From a virus: a stretch of 28,039 nt of DNA. Of the stretch, positions 4,957 through 10,589 are shown piece by piece. The stretch lies in IMG/VR virus record IMGVR_UViG_3300017755_000070, positions 1 through 28,039 of that record. The stretch is one strand, 5' to 3'. The position numbers and the translations under genes are program-made. Each line of letters begins with the position of its first letter. Within the stretch, counting starts at the first letter, position 1. The notes beneath the pieces were generated by a model. That model ran no database searches. It saw only the letters and a list, made by a program, of their open reading frames with translations, and was not told the origin of the DNA.

Positions 4957-5119
4957 ATGGTTTATGTTCACTAAAAAGTTTTATTTCTTTTATAACATCT
5001 CTATTAAACATTACCTGATACCAAGTGGCTATTTTTTTGTTTGATGTTATGAGTTTTATAGAACCTTTTTTGTCAATTACTGCAAACTTGTTTACAGGTG
5101 GCATTGTTGGGTCTATCAT
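4955..5119 (-). CDS. Small hypothetical protein, last gene of the tail operon (54 aa)
   Basis: An ORF of 54 codons starts at 5119 with an ATGA overlap with the stop codon of the lysozyme-bearing tail protein and has a good ribosome-binding site (GGAG at 5127-5124 on the - strand, four bases before the ATG). It ends at the T run of the gp32 terminator, so two convergent transcription units meet here without spare sequence. The protein (MIDPTMPPVNKFAVIDKKG to a C-terminal EHKP) is basic and has no recognisable domain. Tight coupling suggests a tail-assembly or structural accessory role, but this is inferred from position only. Confidence 0.55.
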   Translation of the reverse strand: MIDPTMPPVNKFAVIDKKGSIKLITSNKKIATWYQVMFNRDVIKEIKLFSEHKP

Positions 5120-6963
5120 ACTGCTCCAGAAGCTAGTTGTCCATAATCACTACTATCATCCCTCACTATGGTTTCTTTTTCTAAAACTGAATTATTATTA
5201 TTTGTAACCACTTTTATTTTTTGATTTTCTTCACCTGCGGCCGCAGTTTGCAATCTTTTACCTTTTGCTATAACAGCAGAGGCTGCCGATAAATCAGAAC
5301 CACCTGAATTATCACCTGCACTCGCTACAAGTGAAACAATTGTTGGACCACGAGCACCAACTTGACCATACCATTTACTATCTTTTAATTCTTTTGAGGC
5401 AGTTACAAAATCACCATCTTTTAGAGCTGCAGCTGCTTTTTTAAATTCTGTATACCAAGCACCCATATTAAATGATAAATCAATCAAGGCGGCTTTACCG
5501 GCTTTATTTGCCTTATCATAACCTGGTGTTCTCTCTGCAATTTTTTTGTGTTTAGCATAATCTGATTCAAAAAGATTATTCACTTCTGTAGCAGTAAACA
5601 TTCGGTTCATATGTTCTGGTAATGTGCTACCATCACCAATTAAATGACCTACACCAACGTGCCACAAACCCTTAGGGTCTTTATATGGTTCGTATTTCAC
5701 ACCTTCATGTCCAATAATCATTGCTTTAATATCATCATCACCTGAAACTTTAGTTGGCGATTCATCATTAGCACCACCAGCTGCACCGCCATCTCCACTT
5801 AGACCTTGTGCTTTACTGGTTCTATCACCACTTTCTGGTACTGCTACAGGAGATGTAGATCCTGCAGCATAATCAGATGTAACAACTTCCTCTATTTCTT
5901 TTGATGATTGGTCTTGACTAGGATTATTTTGTTGTTTTTTTATTCTCTGAAATTCTTTTTCAACCATTCTATCATCATACTCTCTTTGAGCCTTGTCAAC
6001 AGAAAAAGCTTGATTTTTAGTAAGTCCAAATTTATCTGTTAAATTTGCTCGAGCAGGTAAACCACCTATTACACCTTTCGCACTTACACCCTGTTGAAGT
6101 TTACCTTCATCTCTAAATCTTCTTCTAATACTTTGTCTTAATTTTCTATCTTCTTTTTCTTGTAGGTCTTTTTTTTGTTCATCTGATAGTTCTATGCCTA
6201 TAAAATTTCTTATGCTAGGTATAACTAATGGTTTTAATCTATCTGGTAGTTTTTCAAATCCTTTTTTTAGTAAACTTTTTGTAAAATTTTTAAAAGGCTC
6301 AAGATACTTATTTTTAAACACCTCATAACTCTGACCAATCTTAGATGTAAATTCATCTATCTTTTCCATGAATTTATCTTTTGCTTCGGTCAATTGTTCT
6401 ACAAGAACATCTATACCTAAAAGTTCATAGAAAAATTTGAAAATACCTTTAAATGCCTCAGTAAAAGAAAATTTTTCAAAAGCCTCACCTATACTTTTTT
6501 TAATATCTTCCCAGAAAAGGGCAATCAAGCCAGTTAAAAAAGCACCTTTAAGTATAATGTCAAGCATTGTTTTAAAAAAGTCTACTATACCTCCTAAAAT
6601 ACCTTTTGATTTTTTTGGTTTATCTGGTTTTTTAATTGAAGTTGGTGTAGTATCTGTTATACCTGATAAAGCGTCAATAGTAGCAGGTTTATCACCCATA
6701 ACTTCAACAATTGATGCTACTCTATTGGAAACACCAGTTATATCTCTAGCTATAGATGACAAAAAGTTAAAGTTTGTTTTTATACTTGAAACTAAGCTTT
6801 CGGTTTGTTTTATACGCTGAACAGTTTGTTTTTCAGATTTTTCTGTATCATCATCTTTTTTACCACTAGAAAGAGCGCTACCAATACCTTTCATAGTTCC
6901 CTTGAAAGAACTTTTTATTTGGTCTGCTACAAAACCACCTACTTGGTCATATACATCAGCCAT
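5116..6963 (-). CDS. Virion structural protein with C-terminal T4-type lysozyme domain, tape-measure candidate (615 aa)
   Basis: The N-terminus (MADVYDQVGGFVADQIKSSF) is nearly identical to that of the neighbouring 650-residue protein. A hydrophobic, possibly membrane-inserting stretch follows at residues 118-152, then the shared FSFTEAFKGIF motif (about 165), long charged helical regions and a Ser/Gly/Asp-rich linker. Residues about 415-555 form a GH24 lysozyme-like domain: Glu420 and Asp429 match T4 lysozyme Glu11 and Asp20 with the same spacing, followed by GVGHLIGDG. The position of T4 Thr26 is His435. The domain probably cuts peptidoglycan during DNA entry, replacing the lysozyme missing from gp5. 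Order behind gp26/gp51 and the hydrophobic segment suggest a tape measure or a protein packed with it; this is inference. Confidence 0.8.
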   Translation of the reverse strand: MADVYDQVGGFVADQIKSSFKGTMKGIGSALSSGKKDDDTEKSEKQTVQRIKQTESLVSSIKTNFNFLSSIARDITGVSNRVASIVEVMGDKPATIDALSGITDTTPTSIKKPDKPKKSKGILGGIVDFFKTMLDIILKGAFLTGLIALFWEDIKKSIGEAFEKFSFTEAFKGIFKFFYELLGIDVLVEQLTEAKDKFMEKIDEFTSKIGQSYEVFKNKYLEPFKNFTKSLLKKGFEKLPDRLKPLVIPSIRNFIGIELSDEQKKDLQEKEDRKLRQSIRRRFRDEGKLQQGVSAKGVIGGLPARANLTDKFGLTKNQAFSVDKAQREYDDRMVEKEFQRIKKQQNNPSQDQSSKEIEEVVTSDYAAGSTSPVAVPESGDRTSKAQGLSGDGGAAGGANDESPTKVSGDDDIKAMIIGHEGVKYEPYKDPKGLWHVGVGHLIGDGSTLPEHMNRMFTATEVNNLFESDYAKHKKIAERTPGYDKANKAGKAALIDLSFNMGAWYTEFKKAAAALKDGDFVTASKELKDSKWYGQVGARGPTIVSLVASAGDNSGGSDLSAASAVIAKGKRLQTAAAGEENQKIKVVTNNNNSVLEKETIVRDDSSDYGQLASGAV

Positions 6964-8916
6964 TTAGATTGCAAAGCCTCCAGGAATATTAATTTGTTTG
7001 AATAAATCTTGATTTATAACTGGTGGTGCTTTTTTACTACCACCCGTTTTTCCTTTACTACTATTATTATTTGTTTGACTTTCTACTTGAATACCTCCAC
7101 CTTTAGGTGCTGATTCCATTCTTTGACCTTCTGATACATAATTAGAACTCTCTGACATAGCAGCGCCTGATGGTGCTTTCTTTGTACCACTATCATAGAT
7201 AGATGGTGAACTACCACCAGAACCAGGTGCCATTGGTTCATTACCATATTGTTCTTGTAGAGCTTTCGTATCAATACCCATACCACCCATGGTGCCACCG
7301 ATTAAACTATCAAGACCGCCTGATACATTCTTTACATTTTTAGCCCTTGATTCCTCTGTTGATTCTTTTCCTTTAAAGTTTTTTATTGCAGGATTATTCG
7401 CCAAATTATTTAATGCACCAAATAAAGCAGTTTGCTTATCTTCACCTTTCGCACTTTTAATACTTTGAATCCCACCTTTTAAATCACCAGTAACAGCGCC
7501 AGCATCTACACCCATATCTTGACCCATGCTACCAAACATACTACTAAAACCTTTTTTGGCCATGCCACCTGCATTTATAGAATCACCACCACCTTTTAGT
7601 TTACCCATCATTGGCATAATATTATTACCAAGCATATCACTTGCACCAGTATTTTTCATGAAGTTACCCATTGCTCCTCGCATACTATCACCTTGTGAAG
7701 ATGCTTGTGCTGGTGCAGTAGAAGTTTTTACCATGTTTTTACGGTCGAAACCACCAGCTTTTGTAACTGTTATTTCATCCATCATTATGGGTTTTCCACC
7801 AGATGGGCCTTTATCTATTATTGGTCCCTCACTAACCTTACTCGGACTTGAATCATCTTTATTTGCAGGTATATTGAGTTCATTAGGATTAGGCCCATTT
7901 GTTTTCTCATTCGTGACTCGTGGTGCATCTCCGTAACTATCGCTACCTGAAGAATCTTTTTTAGAATCTTCTTCAGGTTCTTTTGGAGGTTTACCTGAAA
8001 ACATACTACCGAGAAAAGATTTTATTTTATCAAATACATTTCCTATGATATTAAATAATCCCTCAGCAAAATCATCTGGTATAAGACCTATAGTTAAAAA
8101 TTCAACAAGTCCTTGAAAAGCGTTTGTGAAGCTAAATACTTCACCTTCATTGGCGCCCATAATACCATCATAAATTCCTTTAAGCACAGCGGCAATAGCA
8201 AAAACAATTAAAGCATATGGGCCAGCAACTGCTACTAGAGCTCCACCAGCCATTATTCTTGAAGCCACGGTAGCTAATACCCTTCCACCACCACCAAATA
8301 TAGCTCTTGTTATCCCTTTTTTTATTTTTTTAAATAATTCTCCAGTTTTTGAAAAAACATTTTTAAGTGCCTCTTTAATACGTTTAGCAATTCCCTTTGC
8401 AAACTCGACACCTAATATAGTTGCTAATGTTTGTCCTATACCTCCAGCGCCGCCTGTTAAACCAAGACCTTTTGAAGCTGATCTACCGGTTTTCATACCT
8501 GATTTTTGTTCAACTTTGAACACTCTTCTAAACAACTCTTCAAAGTTTTCTTTTTGTTTTTGTTTATAGAAAAAATCTTCAGCTCTACTTTTCTTTATAA
8601 TTTTTGGTATTTTATCAACATTTTTTGAAATCAGACCTATTTCTTTAGAAATTGTTGGTAATACTGATGAACTTGATAAGATTGATTGTAAACTTTGGTT
8701 TATATTCATCAAAGTAGAATCTACGCCACCCAACTTATTACCAGATTTTTCTGGTACTGGTTTATTATCAGATCCCATTTGTTGAGTTTTTGAACCGCCA
8801 GTTATACTTTTGGCAGCACCAGATAAACTTTTAACAGAACCTTTTACGGCACTTTTAAAAGAACTTTTTATCTGGCCAGCTATAAAGCCACCTACTTGGT
8901 CATACACATCAGCCAT
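6964..8916 (-). CDS. Virion structural protein, best tape-measure candidate (650 aa)
   Basis: It starts directly behind the stop of the gp51-like frame and ends directly before the ATG of its relative, so the three are translationally coupled. It shares with that relative the N-terminal tag (MADVYDQVGGFIAGQIKSSF), a central hydrophobic stretch (about residues 209-251), the FSFTNAFQGLVEF motif (about 259) and a C-terminal stretch of the form I-Q-V-E-S-Q-T-N-N-N. Instead of a lysozyme domain the C-terminal half is a Gly/Met/Ser-rich region (about 400-560). In tailed phages the gene after the frameshifted tail-assembly chaperones is normally the tape measure, and the length is close to T4 gp29 (590). 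No sequence similarity to gp29 was recognised, so the role stays inferred. Confidence 0.75.
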   Translation of the reverse strand: MADVYDQVGGFIAGQIKSSFKSAVKGSVKSLSGAAKSITGGSKTQQMGSDNKPVPEKSGNKLGGVDSTLMNINQSLQSILSSSSVLPTISKEIGLISKNVDKIPKIIKKSRAEDFFYKQKQKENFEELFRRVFKVEQKSGMKTGRSASKGLGLTGGAGGIGQTLATILGVEFAKGIAKRIKEALKNVFSKTGELFKKIKKGITRAIFGGGGRVLATVASRIMAGGALVAVAGPYALIVFAIAAVLKGIYDGIMGANEGEVFSFTNAFQGLVEFLTIGLIPDDFAEGLFNIIGNVFDKIKSFLGSMFSGKPPKEPEEDSKKDSSGSDSYGDAPRVTNEKTNGPNPNELNIPANKDDSSPSKVSEGPIIDKGPSGGKPIMMDEITVTKAGGFDRKNMVKTSTAPAQASSQGDSMRGAMGNFMKNTGASDMLGNNIMPMMGKLKGGGDSINAGGMAKKGFSSMFGSMGQDMGVDAGAVTGDLKGGIQSIKSAKGEDKQTALFGALNNLANNPAIKNFKGKESTEESRAKNVKNVSGGLDSLIGGTMGGMGIDTKALQEQYGNEPMAPGSGGSSPSIYDSGTKKAPSGAAMSESSNYVSEGQRMESAPKGGGIQVESQTNNNSSKGKTGGSKKAPPVINQDLFKQINIPGGFAI

Positions 8917-9120
8917 CTATCTCTTAGCCCTTTGCATTTGTTGTTGTAGCTCAAGTCTTTCTTTTTCTTTTTTCAAGTAATCTACTAATAGAGAGATATA
9001 GATATTTCTTTCCCACGGTATCATATCCTCCAATTCAGACAAACTATACTTATGGTGTTGCATTAAAGCAAAGTTTGTTTCATAATAGTTTTTCAGAGTG
9101 TCATAACGAAAGATTAGACG
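8917..9120 (-). CDS. gp51: gp51-like frame, expressed as -1 frameshift extension of gp26 (67 codons)
   Basis: The -1 frame relative to gp26 is open from the frameshift site for 67 codons to TAG at 8919-8917, abutting the ATG of the next gene. Its product (YDTLKNYYETNFALMQHHK, then YSLSELEDMIPWERNIY and a charged helical end) looks like the small gp51 hub-assembly proteins of T4-like marine phages. Between the preceding in-frame stop and the conserved-looking region there is no ATG, GTG or TTG; the first ATG (codon 20) lies inside the block and lacks a ribosome-binding site. Translation as a gp26-gp51 fusion of 310 residues is therefore the simplest explanation. gp51 acts in baseplate hub assembly in T4; a tape-measure chaperone role is inferred from lambda GT. 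Confidence 0.7.
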   Translation of the reverse strand, partial: RLIFRYDTLKNYYETNFALMQHHKYSLSELEDMIPWERNIYISLLVDYLKKEKERLELQQQMQRAKR

Positions 9121-9848
9121 AAAAAATTTTGCATACCCTTTACAGTAATTTGTTCATTGTGTCCACATTTAGGACAATTAAAATCCAAATCTTTTTTTAC
9201 TTCAGGCATGGTACTAAAGAAGTCCTTAAACTTTTCTAAATCTTTTTGTTGTAATGAATCTACAAATTCTTCTAACTCTTTTTTAGGAGTATCTTTTGCG
9301 TAATACATTTGTTCTTCATCATAAATGTAATCAATACAATCAATTAAAACTTTTAACATAGCTTCATTTTCATTCATTTTATCATACTTCTCAAACATTT
9401 CAAAAGTTGGATACTTTAAACAAACACCAACTTTTTCTGTTATTTGTATTTTATCAACATGATTATCATGTATTGTTGGTTCAATTTCTAATATATTAAC
9501 ATCAAAATCAACAACATGATTACATTTCTTTTCTTCTTCTTCACCATCTACATTCGCATTACATTTATATTTTAAATTTACTACTTCATCAACCGATCTA
9601 GCTCTTAGGTTCATGAATAGATATTCTAAATCGAAAGATGGTAAATTATCTACATCTACTTCATCTAACAAACAGTTTTTTAAAACATTTCTGATTGTTG
9701 TTACTAATTCTTTTGTGTCATCTGATTCTGCTGACATCAAAAAAAGTTTTTGTTCTTTGACCAAAAAAGGTCTATAACGAACTGATTTACCGGATGATAT
9801 AAGTTTCAACTCATACGTTGGTACATCTAGTCTTGGTAATTTAATCAT
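9114..9848 (-). CDS. gp26: gp26-like baseplate hub assembly protein (244 aa)
   Basis: Resembles the T4_baseplate family that contains T4 gp26. It starts with LPRLDVPTYELKLISSGK and a RYRPFLVKEQKLFL block, followed by a helical stretch with FDLEYLFMNLRARS (72-85). Two Cys pairs, Cys96/Cys109 and Cys225/Cys228 (CPKCGH), probably form one zinc ribbon built from distant parts of the chain. The zero-frame protein ends Phe-Phe-Val right after a T TTT TTC slippery sequence, and a fraction of ribosomes is predicted to continue into the gp51-like frame. In T4, gp26 is needed for hub assembly. Here it stands between the tail-tube-type protein and the tape-measure candidates, as a tail chaperone would. 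Confidence 0.85.
   Translation of the reverse strand: MIKLPRLDVPTYELKLISSGKSVRYRPFLVKEQKLFLMSAESDDTKELVTTIRNVLKNCLLDEVDVDNLPSFDLEYLFMNLRARSVDEVVNLKYKCNANVDGEEEEKKCNHVVDFDVNILEIEPTIHDNHVDKIQITEKVGVCLKYPTFEMFEKYDKMNENEAMLKVLIDCIDYIYDEEQMYYAKDTPKKELEEFVDSLQQKDLEKFKDFFSTMPEVKKDLDFNCPKCGHNEQITVKGMQNFFV
9120..9141 (-). promoter_or_regulatory. Putative programmed -1 ribosomal frameshift site in gp26
   Basis: On the - strand the zero-frame codons AAT TTT TTC GTC TAA contain the heptamer T TTT TTC (9126-9120), of the X XXY YYZ type, on which Phe-tRNA can re-pair in both ribosomal sites. An SD-like AAAGGG (9141-9136) lies nine bases upstream, close to the spacing of the stimulator in E. coli dnaX. The zero-frame stop comes two codons later. 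No strong downstream hairpin was seen by eye. Confidence 0.65.
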
Positions 9849-9866: not shown

Positions 9867-10589
9867 TTAAAAAAGATTTCTTACTAAATTCGCACCTTTA
9901 CCTCCAAGTAAAGAAGCTGCAGCTTGACCTATGTCATAACCACCCTCATAAACGGTACTATACTTTTGATATGCAAAAGAAACTGATAGTCTATGAAAAC
10001 CATCATCAGACCAACTTAACGGTTGAGGTGCAACACCAACTGGGTAAGCGTCCTCTAAATTTACAACATAAATTTGTTTTATAAAATCATCATATTGTAT
10101 AATTTTAAGTTGAGTGTAATAACTTGATAATTGACCTTTTGGGAATCTCATATTGTTTGTGTCTGGTGGCATAATAGATTCTGTCCACCTTTCAAATAAT
10201 TTTCTTTCATAAAACTGATTACTGCAAATGAATGTTAAGTTTATATCAGCATATGATCTTTGATAAGGTACTTTAAAGATTGGACCATATATCTTAACAT
10301 CAGCCGTTTGAAATGTTTTTCCTGGTAACTCAGCAGATTCACATTGCAACGCTAAGTATCTTGAAAGAGCTGAAGTTCCTCCAGTAGATCTACCTAATGC
10401 TTTATTTACAACATCAGAGATGTCACCAAATACAGAGTTTGGAAAATTGAGTATTTTTTCTATCACAGAATTACCAACCGATTGATTAATATATGGTGGT
10501 ATCGGTAATATAACCTCAAACCTGGATGGCCTTGCTGGACCATCTTTTCCTTGCATATTTGATAAAAACAAATTAGGTGAAAATGACAT
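9867..10589 (-). CDS. gp54: gp54/gp19-family tail-tube-type protein, probable baseplate-tube initiator (240 aa)
   Basis: The pattern RPSRFEVILPIP near the N-terminus, LALQCESAELPGKTFQTADV in the middle, then YGPIFKVPYQRSY, a FYERKLFERW helix, and YTQLKIIQYDD with the C-terminal YPVGVAPQPLSW, is typical of the contractile-tail tube fold (T4 gp19 family), which also includes the tube initiators gp48 and gp54. Because gp48 is encoded separately and gp26/gp51 follow, gp54 is the most likely identity, though it is shorter than T4 gp54 (320). It could also be a second tube protein. A good AAGGAG ribosome-binding site precedes the start, and a CATAAATA late-promoter octamer lies 23 bases upstream. 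Confidence 0.75.
   Translation of the reverse strand: MSFSPNLFLSNMQGKDGPARPSRFEVILPIPPYINQSVGNSVIEKILNFPNSVFGDISDVVNKALGRSTGGTSALSRYLALQCESAELPGKTFQTADVKIYGPIFKVPYQRSYADINLTFICSNQFYERKLFERWTESIMPPDTNNMRFPKGQLSSYYTQLKIIQYDDFIKQIYVVNLEDAYPVGVAPQPLSWSDDGFHRLSVSFAYQKYSTVYEGGYDIGQAAASLLGGKGANLVRNLF

Follow-up and report, generated by a model that had tools for sequence, protein, structure and literature searches.

Frameshifting of the G-T type is conserved among long-tailed phages with the exception of T4 (Atkins et al. 2016, PMC5009743). For T4-like phages, the PRFect article (PMC10274946) cites Vladimirov et al. 2022 both for a short gene accompanied by a fused long gene and for T4 gp26 and gp51 as short and long tail assembly chaperones (TACs). 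A second article (PMC12846349) cites the same work for poly-T frameshift signals in the TAC-N genes of these phages. T4 gp26 and gp51 are also listed as hub assembly chaperones, and gp51 is reported as required yet absent from the particle (PMC3004832). The tail chaperones of T4-like phages have been published already, as apparently have the poly-T frameshift signals in them. In the open-access literature searched we found neither codon controls nor clade differences in stimulators.

We analyzed a 28-kb virus record from IMG/VR (the window, 28,039 nucleotides), in which a homolog of gp26 is followed by an overlapping gp51-like frame. Judging from sequence and from a structure model, a conserved -1 frameshift very probably yields a short (gp26) and a long (gp26-gp51) tail assembly chaperone at this locus. 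The case rests on the slip site, the phase of the tail, the conservation of both, the lack of a gp51 start codon, the TAC-like predicted fold and the one-frame gp51 of T4. Each of these is described below.

Layout of the gp26-gp51 junction

The features of the locus are listed in Table 1. Read directly in the gp26 frame, the 3' end of gp26 is GTA AAG GGT ATG CAA AAT TTT TTC GTC TAA. The -1 frame after the TGA at 9156-9154 reads ACA AAT TAC TGT AAA GGG TAT GCA AAA TTT TTT CGT CTA, and it stays open for 67 codons past the heptamer, up to the TAG at 8919-8917, which is abutted by the next ATG at 8916. We searched the -1 frame of the window for ATG, GTG and TTG between the TGA and the slip site and found none. 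The locus thus has the arrangement of the G/GT type, in which the second frame (in -1, rarely in -2) overlaps the first, lacks a start of its own and is reached through a slippery site close to where the first frame ends.

Table 1. Features of the gp26-gp51 locus and its neighbors in the window
Feature	Position	Strand	Evidence
Tail tube-like protein gene, upstream	9867..10589	-	PHROG 45 tail tube, E 1.6e-35
gp26 homolog, 244 aa, predicted short form of the tail assembly chaperone	9114..9848	-	Pfam PF12322, PHROG 150, predicted fold
Last -1-frame stop 5' of the slip site, TGA	9154..9156	-	sequence
SD-like AAAGGG, 9 nt 5' of the heptamer; weakly supported as stimulator	9136..9141	-	codon bias; anti-SD pairing not above synonymous controls
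Spacer, 9 nt, from AAAGGG to the heptamer	9135-9127	-	sequence
Slippery heptamer T TTT TTC (gp26 frame AAT TTT TTC)	9120..9126	-	sequence; T TTT TTY in 77/77 relatives, 2/75 internal Phe-Phe controls
gp26 stop codon TAA	9114..9116	-	sequence
gp51-like tail, 67 codons + TAG, -1 relative to gp26, predicted C-terminal part of the long form	8917..9120	-	PHROG 634; -1 in 76/77 relatives
ORF of 650 aa immediately downstream; tape measure on position alone	6964..8916	-	context

A sequence-only reading of this DNA had joined gp26 to the -1 frame at this heptamer, had seen no usable gp51 start after the upstream TGA, and had given the fusion a length of 310 residues. Direct reading bears out the coordinates and phase of the heptamer, the absence of a start and the length (243 + 67 = 310 aa). 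The same reading counted two codons between the heptamer and the gp26 stop, where there is actually one (GTC).

Conservation of the heptamer and the -1 phase

Using gp26 alone as the query, we retrieved 80 relatives from IMG/VR, which were therefore not selected for the signal; all of them carry TTTTTTC in the equivalent position and have the tail in the -1 frame. Annotated phages and loci related to S-PM2 and HTVC008M brought the set to 194 junctions, of which 84 share less than 90% gp26 identity. Subtraction of the T4 type and the Ackermannviridae type left 77 non-redundant relatives of the frameshift type. Every one of the 77 possesses T TTT TTY in the gp26 frame at the junction Phe-Phe pair (TTTTTTC in 73 and TTTTTTT in 4), located 0 to 2 codons before the gp26 stop, and the gp51 tail is in the -1 frame in 76.

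Internal Phe-Phe pairs of the same genes are encoded by T TTT TTY in 2 of 75 cases, and codon usage alone predicts T TTT TTY at about 0.43 per sequence. Among sequences with less than 80% identity, the second Phe codon at the junction is TTC in all 41 of the window type and S-PM2 type, where TTC makes up 26-31% of Phe codons. The heptamer at the gp26 junction is thus far above chance, with the proviso that these counts share ancestry and are not independent, so the corresponding probabilities are indicative only. With the S-SCSM1 gp26 as the query, 80 more loci were retrieved, and all 80 have TTTTTTC. The heptamer and the -1 phase are kept in Kyanoviridae, the pelagiphage HTVC008M, KVP40, the Aeromonas phages Ah1 and CC2, Caulobacter phage Cr30, Sinorhizobium phage phiN3, Rhizobium phage IG49 and Stenotrophomonas phage Marzo. 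Alignment of the junctions across relatives had been proposed beforehand as a check on the heptamer, the -1 phase and the SD-like element; the first two are conserved, and the third proved weaker.

Could gp51 instead be a small gene in its own right, with translation beginning at a non-canonical codon close to the junction, by re-initiation past the gp26 stop, or at the internal ATG at 9063-9061, which lies 19 codons 3' of the heptamer? Public records give gp51 its own CDS, which begins 2 nt past the gp26 stop in S-PM2 and is annotated from about 50 nt inside in HTVC008M, and in S-SCSM1 the tail has an ATG close to its beginning. However, in 75 of the 77 relatives no ATG, GTG or TTG occurs in the -1 frame from the upstream stop to the slip site, and 38 of the 77 also lack a start in the first 12 codons 3' of it. 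Initiation at the internal ATG would lose the conserved stretch RLIFRYDTLKNYYETNFAL, and an independent start leaves both the conserved T TTT TTC and the one-frame gp51 of T4 unexplained. We therefore consider a separate gp51 gene very improbable.

Runs of six or seven A or T can slip, and an RNA polymerase that adds one T within the run would produce some mRNAs with gp26 and gp51 in a single frame, encoding the identical fusion protein. Selection for polymerase slippage should lengthen the run; instead, 73 of the 77 relatives keep exactly six T and then a C, even though TTT is the preferred Phe codon. The phase of the run relative to gp26 is also fixed, and the SD-like codon choice and the S-PM2-type hairpins (see below) fit ribosomal slippage, so transcriptional slippage seems to us still less probable than an independent gp51 start.

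Homopolymer runs are also common error sites, and the change of phase could in principle come from sequencing or assembly. This explanation, whose probability is next to nil, is refuted by conservation, since the identical phase occurs in well over 150 loci, from isolates as well as metagenomes, down to about 25% gp26 identity. Ribosomal frameshifting at the heptamer is the reading that we carry forward.

Candidate stimulatory elements

The dnaX signal of E. coli consists of an A AAA AAG heptamer, an SD-like element and a 3' hairpin. The sequence-only reading had proposed a dnaX-like layout for the window, with AAAGGG upstream of the heptamer as the SD-like element. Of this layout the heptamer stands, as does the position of AAAGGG; the stimulatory role of the latter is less secure, and no 3' hairpin was detected in the window's clade.

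By codon choice (sequences with less than 80% identity), the Lys ahead of GGN is encoded by AAG in 8 of 11 members of the window clade versus 24% elsewhere in the genes, and the corresponding Glu codon in the S-PM2 clade is GAG in 14 of 23 versus 29%. By energy, the predicted pairing of the window with the 16S tail (-4.5 kcal/mol) is no better than that of synonymous recodings (p = 0.46). Many S-PM2-type phages possess GGAGGG, with a predicted pairing of -9.8 kcal/mol. With the codon-bias test positive and the energy test negative, AAAGGG is a weakly supported candidate stimulator in the window.

Downstream of the heptamer, predicted folding is characterized by a mean z of -2.40 in S-PM2-type sequences (control -0.19) and of 0.08 in the window clade. 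A common downstream RNA structure was sought with alifold across 39 S-PM2-type and 26 window-type sequences and was rejected, as no pairs were obtained. Structure appeared only within two S-PM2 subgroups, in each of which none of 200 column shuffles was as stable; with only one double-changed pair, covariation support for these hairpins is thin. A third S-PM2 subgroup gave no structure. The hairpins of the two cyanophage subgroups, GTTCTATAATA...TATTATAGAAC and TATGGCTCA...TGAGTCATA, are unrelated to each other and occupy one place 3' of the heptamer.

An excess of synonymous conservation (0.25) in the first eight tail codons of the window clade was considered as a sign of an extra RNA element. 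We do not claim such an element because other stretches of the tail have an excess of 0.10-0.18 and single distant codons are equally invariant.

Protein families, predicted fold and gene neighborhood

The gp26 of the window matches Pfam PF12322 (T4_baseplate, E 1.2e-60) and PHROG 150 (E 7.8e-65). The tail matches PHROG 634, baseplate hub assembly catalyst (E 4.3e-26, with a query peptide that began two residues before the listed tail), as well as the end of PHROG 150. By sequence homology of both parts, the PF12322 domain and the gp51 tail, the locus belongs to the T4 gp26/gp51 family.

In T4, residues 1-201 of the 249-aa gp51 match PF12322 (E 7.7e-55) and are followed in the same frame by the homologous tail; gp51 of EcS1 and 44RR aligns in the same way. 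In none of these three phages does gp26 end with a slippery site, and all three encode gp51 separately, in the opposite orientation. Hence T4 gp26 and gp51 are a short and a long paralog, and these phages, which lack the slip site, encode the long protein in a single open frame. Among the ORFs of the window, a 28-kb fragment, we found no second gene for a one-frame long form.

An AlphaFold2 model of the window gp26 (pLDDT 85.5) has as its top three solved matches 3fgx (Z 8.2), 2ob9 (HK97 gp13, Z 7.6) and 3klu (Z 7.3), although Z values of this size are near the chance range and can reflect a common arrangement. The matches are confined to residues 1-95; the following ones have Z 5.1 and 2.9, the latter being the next unrelated one. 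All of the top three are phage tail assembly chaperones (PMC9603447). The fold evidence carries weight because all three belong to the family predicted by gene order and the frameshift layout, and we take the modeled chaperone fold of gp26 as supportive rather than decisive. A search of solved structures by sequence with a gp26 profile gave no match. The window gp26 is larger than the solved chaperones and has an extra C-terminal region with a zinc-ribbon-like CxxC.

No match to the 650-aa downstream ORF was found among annotated phages. In HTVC008M and Cr30, gp51 is followed by one small ORF and then by an annotated tape measure gene. The proposal of the sequence-only reading that gp26 and gp51 are a tail chaperone pair is supported by the predicted fold, the gene order and the one-frame gp51 fusion of T4.

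The two genes downstream of gp51 (5116-8916), encoding products of 650 and 615 aa, share the N terminus MADVYDQVGGF-A-QIKSSFK, with 35% identity over 110 columns. The 615-aa product contains a phage lysozyme domain (PF00959).

Proposed mechanism

We propose that gp26 and gp51 are overlapping parts of a single gene that encodes tail assembly chaperones. The majority of ribosomes would terminate at the gp26 stop and release the 244-aa short form. A minority would slip back by one base on T TTT TTC, where the two tRNA-Phe could re-pair with TTT TTT; these ribosomes would read past the stop into the gp51 tail and produce the long form of 310 aa. If the two forms act as lambda G and GT do, the domain that they share would cover the tape measure protein, the gp51 tail would bring in the tail tube protein, and both forms would leave afterwards. 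We infer the slippage, as well as its frequency and the roles of the two forms.

Variant lineages and annotation

S-SCSM1 retains TTTTTTC but has an 11-nt insertion (AATCCTAATAG) immediately 3' of the gp26 stop (locus 2470-2495), which shifts the tail from the -1 frame into another phase, with an ATG near its start. Its nearest relatives (79% and 76% gp26 identity) have the usual layout and lack the insertion, which may be a real change, a case of -2 shifting or a sequencing error.

In the Ackermannviridae (S118, phiA8-29, HMGUkp5, Ds5CZ) and Vibrio phage K353, a gp51-like tail with the motif MPWHL follows gp26 in the -1 frame and has no evident start codon. ATT TTC or CTT TTC replaces TTT TTC in these phages, so that only T TTC could re-pair. 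A scan with the phiA8-29 gp26 as the query matched phiA8-29 alone.

We tentatively suggest, as a possibility somewhat short of even, that the frameshift is homologous throughout and that its stimulators have come to differ between clades, across the S-PM2 type, the window clade, the Ackermannviridae and the T4 branch. Many S-PM2-type phages combine a strong GGAGGG with a hairpin just past the gp26 stop, drawn from at least two unrelated hairpin sequences. The window clade shows no strong SD or hairpin, and its ratio would be set by the heptamer and the local codon context. In the Ackermannviridae slippage might involve no more than the four bases T TTC, whereas the T4 branch would have given up slippage for a separate long gene.

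As the sequence-only reading had suspected, gp51 starts in relatives are forced, being annotated just past the gp26 stop, further inside, or not at all. The gp51 tail lies unannotated between gp26 and the next gene in S-WAM1, S-CAM4, Ah1 and CC2. The gp51 "baseplate hub assembly catalyst" in the records of T4-like marine phages examined here would be only the C-terminal part of a frameshift product, which would correct an annotation pattern repeated across those records.

Comparison with known systems

As in lambda G/GT (PMC5009743), a short form and a -1 extended long form would come from one overlapping gene in the window; the slip site lies a few codons before the stop. The window gene follows one for a tail tube-like protein and precedes an ORF that is a candidate tape measure by position. 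A TAC-like predicted fold is common to the window and the lambda G/GT-related chaperones. Unlike lambda G/GT, the window gene belongs to the PF12322 (T4 gp26) family and is larger than the solved chaperones, and its slippage is predicted from sequence.

The poly-T frameshift in the TACs of Vandenendeviridae and Andersonviridae (PMC12846349) resembles the window in having a T-rich slip site near the TAC-N end, a -1 frame that is open to the tape measure (in the window, to the ORF in that position), and a tail that is often misannotated. The motif reported for them is GTTTTT, and that of the window is T TTT TTC; the likeness is one of layout.

With dnaX the window shares an SD-like element about ten bases 5' of the heptamer. 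The two differ in the heptamer itself, T TTT TTC in the window and A AAA AAG in dnaX, and no hairpin was detected in the window's clade. Many S-PM2-type relatives, like dnaX, combine all three parts, an SD-like element, a heptamer and a downstream hairpin.

The domain and the tail are homologous between T4 gp26/gp51 and the window, but in T4, EcS1 and 44RR the long form comes from a separate gene, whereas here the tail follows gp26 in the -1 frame. The cyanophage and pelagiphage branch would thus follow the usual tail-chaperone plan, and T4, the often-cited exception, would be the branch that uses two genes. The two-gene T4 and the frameshift branch would then lend themselves to a natural comparison, each setting the ratio of short to long form in its own way.
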